NCBI GenBank assembly: GCA_011523635.1
Contig: WTGI01000020.1
Coordinates: 12,526 to 56,079, forward strand
Direction of reading: 5' to 3'
Length of the DNA: 43,554 nucleotides
From: Acidimicrobiia bacterium
Lineage (GTDB): Bacteria > Actinomycetota > Acidimicrobiia > Spongiisociales > Spongiisociaceae
In this document: in pieces, positions 14,452 to 32,805 of the stretch
Layout: each line of letters opens with the position of its first letter
Position numbering within the stretch: the stretch's first letter is position 1
Position numbers and translations under genes: made by a program
Notes under the pieces: generated by a model
Told to the model about the DNA's origin: nothing
Database searches by the model: none
Seen by the model: the letters and a program-made list of their open reading frames with translations, nothing else

Positions 14452-14477
14452 GCCCGTAGCGGTCTGTCTGTATCCCT

Positions 14478-14642
14478 GTGGTCTGTCTGCGGGACGGCGG
14501 TGTGGTATGGCGTCGGCAGCGGTGTTCCTCGCAAGGCCCGCTGACGAAGGCGTGCCCGCAGCGGCACGTTGAGGAAGCGGAACGCAGCGACGGGACACCG
14601 ATGGCAGCCAGAACACGCCCAGTCGTTTCGCAGGTAGACCAC
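14478..14642 (-). mobile_element. MITE-like element, copy 1 (165 bp, terminal inverted repeats)
   Basis: A 165-bp element bounded by imperfect terminal inverted repeats, GTGGTCTGTCTGCG on the left and the complement of CGCAGGTAGACCAC on the right. Read on the minus strand it matches copy 2 (30661-30825) at about 149 of 165 positions without gaps. It contains an inner hairpin (CGTGCC/GGCACG with 6-nt loop) and nested weak complementarity throughout, so it can fold end to end. It encodes no plausible protein. Its right end lies 2 nt before the GTG of the Ppx/GppA gene. A partial second terminal repeat (GGTCTGTCTG) sits at 14461-14470. No clear target-site duplication is visible. Confidence 0.8.
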
Positions 14643-14644
14643 TA

Positions 14645-30660: not shown

Positions 30661-30825
30661 GTGGTCTGCCTACGCAACAACCAGGCGTGCTCTGGCTGCC
30701 AGCGGCGCCCCGTCGCTGCGTTCCGCTTCCTCAACGTGCCGCTGCGGGCACGCCCTCGTCAGCGGGCCTTGCGAGGAACACCGCTGCCGACGCCATACCA
30801 CACCAGCGTTCCACAGGCAGACCAC
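30661..30825 (+). mobile_element. MITE-like element, copy 2 (165 bp, terminal inverted repeats)
   Basis: Same length as copy 1 at 14478-14642 and about 90% identical to its reverse complement. The terminal repeats are perfect over 11 bp: GTGGTCTGCCT at the left, AGGCAGACCAC at the right. The inner hairpin CGTGCC/GGCACG is identical to copy 1, and the central ~80 bp differ at only one position, so the middle is better conserved than the flanks. It lies inside the ATP-grasp/alpha-E/transglutaminase operon. Its right end is 2 nt before the ATG of the alpha-E gene, giving AGGCAG 7 nt upstream of the start. No transposase is present in the window; movement would be in trans. Confidence 0.82.
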
Positions 30826-32793: not shown

Positions 32794-32804
32794 GTGGTCT
32801 GCCT
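32794..32804 (+). repeat. Lone copy of the MITE terminal repeat
   Basis: GTGGTCTGCCT, identical to the 11-bp terminal repeat of the element at 30661-30825, here without the rest of the element. The following GTAGG also resembles the inner side of the right terminus. It lies just upstream of the -10 element of the stress-protein gene and may be a relic end. Confidence 0.5.
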
Positions 32805-32805
32805 G

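Follow-up and report, generated by a model that had tools for sequence, protein, structure and literature searches.

A multicopy 165-bp hairpin element with a conserved core and differing arms in Acidimicrobiia

The window analysed here, a stretch of 43,554 nucleotides from a genome of the Acidimicrobiia, contains two 165-bp intervals in opposite orientation, and the question raised by this locus is what kind of sequence they represent. A preliminary description offered two readings, a MITE moved in trans or a structured non-coding element with its core under some constraint; the results below support both.

Two copies in the window and many in related genomes

The two intervals are 149/165 (90.3%) identical as reverse complements and both carry GTGGTCT...AGACCAC ends, as the preliminary description claimed. 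Its report of an almost invariant centre of about 80 bp with a single difference also held, there being only one difference over roughly 90 bp, and so did its terminal inverted repeats (TIRs), although the pairing is longer than claimed, such that the whole element from TIR to TIR is one hairpin. The relevant features are as follows.

14459..14470, + strand: solitary TIR remnant GCGGTCTGTCTG, upstream of copy 1
14478..14642, + strand: mobile hairpin element, copy 1 (165 bp), flanked by genes for a MoxR-like AAA protein and Ppx/GppA
14478..14498, + strand: copy 1 left terminal inverted repeat, GTGGTCTGTCTGCGGGACGGC
14515..14605, + strand: copy 1 conserved structured core (covariance models R1, 115.8 bits, and R2, 83.9 bits)
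14622..14642, + strand: copy 1 right terminal inverted repeat, ending AGACCAC
14643..14644, + strand: copy 1 right-hand TA of the target-site duplication, immediately 5' of the Ppx/GppA GTG start
30661..30825, - strand: mobile hairpin element, copy 2 (165 bp), flanked by genes for a circularly permuted ATP-grasp protein and an Alpha-E protein
30698..30788, - strand: copy 2 conserved structured core (R1, 108.4 bits; R2, 77.9 bits)

The left-hand TA is not intact in copy 1, and copy 2 is antisense to both of its neighbours. Copy 1 occupies the same site in genome G005 (locus L043; element 99.4% identical, flanks 96.7 and 90.4%), where the remnant GCGGTCTGTCTG is also present with one base different, and copy 2 occupies the same site in G002 (L060; element 91.5% identical, flanks 84.4 and 82.7%). 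A pattern scan of the genome also finds a lone 12-base TIR match, GTGGTCTGCCTG, with one mismatch at window positions 32794-32805. The element is 160-166 bp long with TIRs of about 20 bp and has no convincing ORF of its own, so that the earlier statement that it encodes nothing convincing stands; an origin as a gene fragment is rejected, since there is no coding signal and copies are found in both orientations.

When the genome to which the window belongs (3.15 Mb in 91 contigs) was searched by BLAST, 43 matches to the element were found, several of them cut off by contig ends, and the best other copy has an E-value of 4e-68. BLAST also finds many copies in 8/9 of the remaining genus genomes and in each of the two genomes from a second genus of the family. 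Chance similarity is thus excluded, and the absence of further copies, which the preliminary description gave as grounds for abandoning a mobile element, is not what we observe; the earlier observation was correct, yet understates the extent of what is there. Six contigs of G000 (C14, C39, C44, C50, C59 and C68) terminate inside copies, which suggests that the repeats interrupt the assembly and makes the count a minimum. Within the genus only G009 lacks the element altogether, both by BLAST and by covariance model, and it could act as an element-free outgroup.

The named public genomes that carry the element are nearly all Acidimicrobiia or unclassified bacterial MAGs, and no match was found in the plasmids, phages or viral contigs searched. 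A typical copy (L077, VXMF01000049.1) lies on a contig binned as Terriglobia (SB0661_bin_30), which is likely to be a binning error since an Acidimicrobiia bin from the same sample, SB0661, contains copies too. No Rfam covariance model matches in the window or at the divergent homologous elements described below, and no described equivalent in Acidimicrobiia or Actinobacteria was found in the literature searched, subscription papers being mostly outside that search.

Insertion at TA and the probable parent transposons

For analyses of flanks, trees and folds 128 distinct full copies were gathered. The commonest flanks are CTA...TAG, and where the left TA is intact it is preceded by C in 66/67 copies, while an intact right TA is followed by G in 75/97. 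We note that, of 129 copies whose flanks were compared, 67 have an intact left TA and 97 an intact right TA, that 46 copies retain the right TA only, and that TCA or CCA is common at the left.

The joined flanks of 17 sites in the element's own genome were searched against the genus and the orthologous loci were then fetched. At these flanks G007 is 97-99% identical, and three of its loci (L155, L156, L157) are cleanly empty: GAGCTC|TAGGGT as against the occupied GAGCTCTA-(165-bp element)-TAGGGT, CACTCGC|TAGGC as against CACTCGCTA-(element)-TAGGC, and GACCGAC|TAGCCC as against GACCGACTA-(element)-TAGCCC. Empty sites of the same kind are found in other genomes (L159, L161, L169), and many insertions are not common to the close relative. 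Insertion is thus precise, at the TA of CTAG with duplication of the 2-bp TA, and has occurred in many copies, mostly near gene ends; this was one of the checks that the preliminary description had proposed. A 4-bp duplication of CTAG was considered and is less likely, since the terminal G and C of the element hardly vary, in contrast to the decaying TA beside them, and since the element at site L006, with target CTAT, keeps its G.

Several other apparently empty sites retain a TIR remnant such as CTAGTGGTCTGTCTG (L164, L165, L183), and deletions within the element therefore probably also occur. Solitary remnants of this type without a full element at orthologous sites are seen at window positions 14459-14470 and at L164, L165, L183 and L128, and suggest internal deletion or imprecise loss. 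Tandem copies are also present, with a recurrent 6-bp linker (TATCGC, TATTGC or TTTCGC) and a second copy that lacks its first GTG (L015, G000:C79; L014, G000:C14; L027, G000:C39; L046, G003:C133; and L116), and at L058 (G003:C29) there are three copies with single-base joins.

Duplication of TA is a hallmark of IS630/Tc1-mariner elements, and a preference for CTAG has been reported for IS630 (PMC2170065, and the title by Tenzen and Ohtsubo cited there). Insertion at TA with a 2-bp duplication fits mobilization of this type, although movement by an IS630 transposase itself is inferred. Transposases with the PF13358 domain are present in 19/138 genomes of the order, where several IS630-family elements are complete, 1138-1155 bp long and mostly flanked by CTA..TAG (L196, L198, L200, L201, L202). 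Their ends (GTGGTGTGTCGCGGAATTGG, GTGGTCCGTCGCGGAATTGG, GTGGTCCGTCTGG and similar) are of the GTGGTCYGTC or GTGGTGTGTC type, and those of the 165-bp element are GTGGTCTGTCTGYGGAAY and GTGGTCTGTCTGCGAAAC. Since both the CTA..TAG flanks and the GTGGTCYGTC ends are common to the IS630-family elements, the 165-bp element is a MITE, most likely of IS630 type and moved in trans. Apart from a helper in the same genus, the criteria for a MITE are fulfilled (shorter than 500 bp, non-coding, multicopy, with TIRs, a target-site duplication and empty orthologous sites), and dozens of copies, empty sites with TA duplication and matching IS630-family ends in the order all support this reading.

The IS630-family elements with similar ends sit in other families of the order and none is in the genus; no PF13358 transposase was found in the 10 genus genomes, and the one expected was thus not found in the same genome. 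The parent group is likely, being identified by resemblance of ends, while a helper within the genus is not identified. Gaps in the MAG assemblies could possibly explain its absence despite recent insertions, although this is untested, and a helper that closed the gap would, as inferred from sequence alone, be an IS630 element with GTGGTCTG ends. No pair of GTGGTCTGTCTG 1-4 kb apart was seen in a partial scan of the element's own genome, the core was not found inside IS630 transposons, and the five DDE_Tnp_1 (IS4/IS5-type) matches in the genus include none with element-like ends. In a second genus of the same family, L211 (G013:C16) has a core match (542-632) a few hundred bases from an IS630 transposase fragment; core matches near such fragments (L211, L195) may be separate elements.

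A strand-specific fold, a conserved core and differing arms

The consensus of the element is one hairpin of 64 pairs over 165 nt (a stem of about 65 bp), with a predicted stability of -101.5 kcal/mol on the + strand versus -73.4 on the - strand. A decaying DNA palindrome should give G.T and A.C mismatches equally. When changes at pairs with a Watson-Crick consensus were placed on a tree of the 128 copies, there were 32 to G.U and 3 to A.C on internal branches, and 73 and 40, respectively, on terminal branches; for all pairs the G.U:A.C ratios are 41:4 internal and 78:44 terminal. Related copies are not independent, and a tree of 165-bp sequences is noisy. The large excess of G.U over A.C indicates that the fold of one strand only is selected and maintained, most strongly on lineages from which more copies arose. 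Change is least in the core, where terminal branches have 1.88 changes per site as against 3.1-3.8 for the arms. We note that G.T and G.A pairs also stabilize single-stranded DNA, so that an RNA is not proven.

According to a simple codon-usage gene caller, nearly all classified copies are intergenic, and a gene 3' end is the nearest boundary in 72/109. Their orientation relative to genes is without preference (-- 45, ++ 38, -+ 13, +- 13).

The covariance model R1 was built from the core and finds divergent multicopy homologues in other families of the order, including 66 matches in G133 and 39 in G134. An alignment of 77 homologues (A3) was fitted to the structure and is biased towards it; in this, 22/31 pairs changed on both sides (shuffle mean 10.8; 0/500), with 59 further pair types, and the covariation score is 0.287 versus 0.127 when shuffled and 0.03-0.05 when slid. 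An independent RNAalifold structure gives 17/24 pairs changed on both sides, and across the homologues there are 261 G.U cells versus 16 A.C. Covariation between families and strand-specific tolerance of G.U thus support the other reading offered at the outset, a structured element with a constrained core.

The second model, R2, matches 79/395 genomes of the class and 20/396 genomes sampled across the phylum, other classes included, although the most distant matches (E about 1e-5 to 1e-4) are less certain. TIR-like ends delimit 16/19 distant loci inspected, mostly at 157-165 bp, and most delimited homologues are 157-166 bp long. All 79 delimited elements that were folded (63 from nine genome groups of the order and 16 more distant) are more stable on the + strand.

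The ends of these elements differ by lineage at similar length: GTGTCCTGAGTCG in G131, GTGCCTCGACCGG in G018, GTGCTCCCCACCG in G133, GTGCTCTGTCCACG in G093, GTGCTGTGCCCCGG in G064, and others. TIRs with three or fewer mismatches in 16 are present at 49/77 real loci versus 0/385 shuffles. Within G134, elements with GTGCTC- and GTGGT-arms have cores that are 92-93% identical and arms that are only 54-56% identical (random, 47%), and in both G133 and G134 the same core is also found with a third type of arm, GGAGGCTGGTGTG. The replaced arms are still paired, and both must therefore have changed together. Elements of the GTGGT/GTGTC group have 2-bp target repeats, mostly TA (10/16), and none with 3 bp, whereas those of the GTGC group have non-palindromic 3-bp repeats, mostly CTTA..TTAG (12/37). 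With at least two target types, probably two types of transposase serve one core, and as the duplication is a 3-bp TNA in some subfamilies, IS630 on its own is probably unable to move them all. The element is thus a single hairpin of about 160 nt whose central 90 nt or so show phylum-wide conservation, whereas its outer arms and the TIRs within them are different.

Interpretation and relation to known elements

We consider it likely that this is a non-autonomous cut-and-paste MITE of IS630/Tc1-mariner type with exchangeable arms, whose core is kept as a single-stranded fold. In this view an IS630-family transposase that recognizes GTGGTCYGTC ends would excise and insert the element in trans, and elements would retain the core, gain new paired arms and thereby become substrates for any transposase that happens to be resident. 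The core would act as a single-stranded nucleic acid, either RNA or the ssDNA present during replication or transposition, and may favour the persistence or spread of the element, for instance through binding of a host protein or by rendering intergenic insertions harmless. That the core is selected for something is inferred from its being kept while the ends differ; its function is unidentified and there is no transcript evidence. Random orientation, insertions absent from a close relative and the bias on internal branches suggest, and we infer, that it is the element, and not each host gene, that benefits from the core.

A bolder reading, which seems to us slightly less likely than not, is that these form a phylum-wide class of mobile hairpins whose unit of inheritance is a conserved single-stranded core (RNA or ssDNA), the terminal arms being exchangeable. 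The core would ride both TA-duplicating (IS630-like) and TNA-duplicating (perhaps IS5/PIF-like) transposases and be a trans-acting or host-factor-binding device, such as a fold-back module that rebuilds paired arms, and not leftover transposon DNA.

An ERIC-like non-coding RNA or mRNA-processing element, copies of which in operons would fold in the transcript, alter the stability or processing of neighbours and be kept by their hosts, is unlikely. It is favoured by the strand-specific fold, by the intergenic position of nearly all classified copies with a gene 3' end nearest in 72/109, and by the precedents of ERIC and NEMIS (PMC2229807), but there is no orientation bias relative to genes (45:38), many insertions are not common to the close relative, and the constraint is strongest on internal branches. 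In particular, copies in both orientations (-- 45, ++ 38) speak against the + strand RNA serving the host at every site.

Still less probable is an ordinary MITE with a functionless core, in which conservation results from recent amplification or inheritance and the hairpin from palindrome decay. The core does change on terminal branches (1.88 changes per site, as against 3.1-3.8 for the arms), these branches show less G.U/A.C bias (73:40) and copies occur in either orientation; however, decay predicts that G.T should equal A.C, and on internal branches these are 32 and 3, while the core structure is recognizable with unrelated arms in several families, other orders and other classes.

A REP-like element mobilized through its single-stranded hairpin by a Y1 (RAYT/TnpA-REP) transposase would account for the strand-specific hairpin and intergenic location but can be all but ruled out, since no Y1 (PF01797) protein is found in the 10 genus genomes, single-strand transposition by Y1 enzymes is not known to make TIRs and a TA target duplication, and 165 bp is far above the 20-40 bp of REPs (PMC3733652). 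Nor does the element qualify as a REP/RAYT member, these being 20-40 bp palindromes that carry either a GTAG tag, in which case a Y1 transposase goes with them, or a CGTC tag, as opposed to 165 bp with TIRs.

For the preferred reading, an IS630-type MITE with a maintained core, mobility itself is of a known kind, and the novelty lies in a core that is conserved, covarying and strand-specific and whose arms can be exchanged. Whereas a MITE is usually defined by its ends, with an interior that is lineage-specific and can be dispensed with, in this element it is the interior that is conserved between families, orders and classes, and the ends that are replaced. This suggests that the centre contributes actively to the success of a non-autonomous element and that such elements have a route by which to change transposase hosts, and the element provides a testable system for core function.

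By analogy, the closest working comparison is RUP with IS630-Spn1, and the folded palindrome of ERIC is a further likeness (PMC2229807). In Streptococcus pneumoniae RUP, for which mobilization by IS630-Spn1 has been proposed (PMC2229807), is likewise short and intergenic, with about 100 copies, a TA target and ends matching an IS630-family transposon; it differs in being 107 bp with 9-bp TIRs, and no phylum-wide conserved core with exchangeable arms is reported for it in the sections of PMC2229807 that bear on it. ERIC (IRU, RU-1) of enterobacteria is also a small intergenic TIR element with TA at its ends and a long stem-loop, and the fold and orientation of its transcript matter (PMC2229807, PMC10969869), but it is 127 bp long with a 7-bp TIR and other sequence and ends, is found in a different phylum, and has no parent transposon named in the sections of those papers that bear on it. 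IS630 and ISY100, of the IS630/Tc1-mariner group (PMC2170065), share cut-and-paste movement, TA duplication and (IS630) the CTAG preference, and the ends of the element resemble those of the order's IS630-family members, although it is 165 bp versus about 1.15 kb and has no transposase gene. MITEPsy1 of Pseudomonas syringae (PMC3189936) is another small MITE with a CTAG target, but is 100 bp long with a 4-bp CTAG or YTAA duplication and possibly an IS5-type parent.
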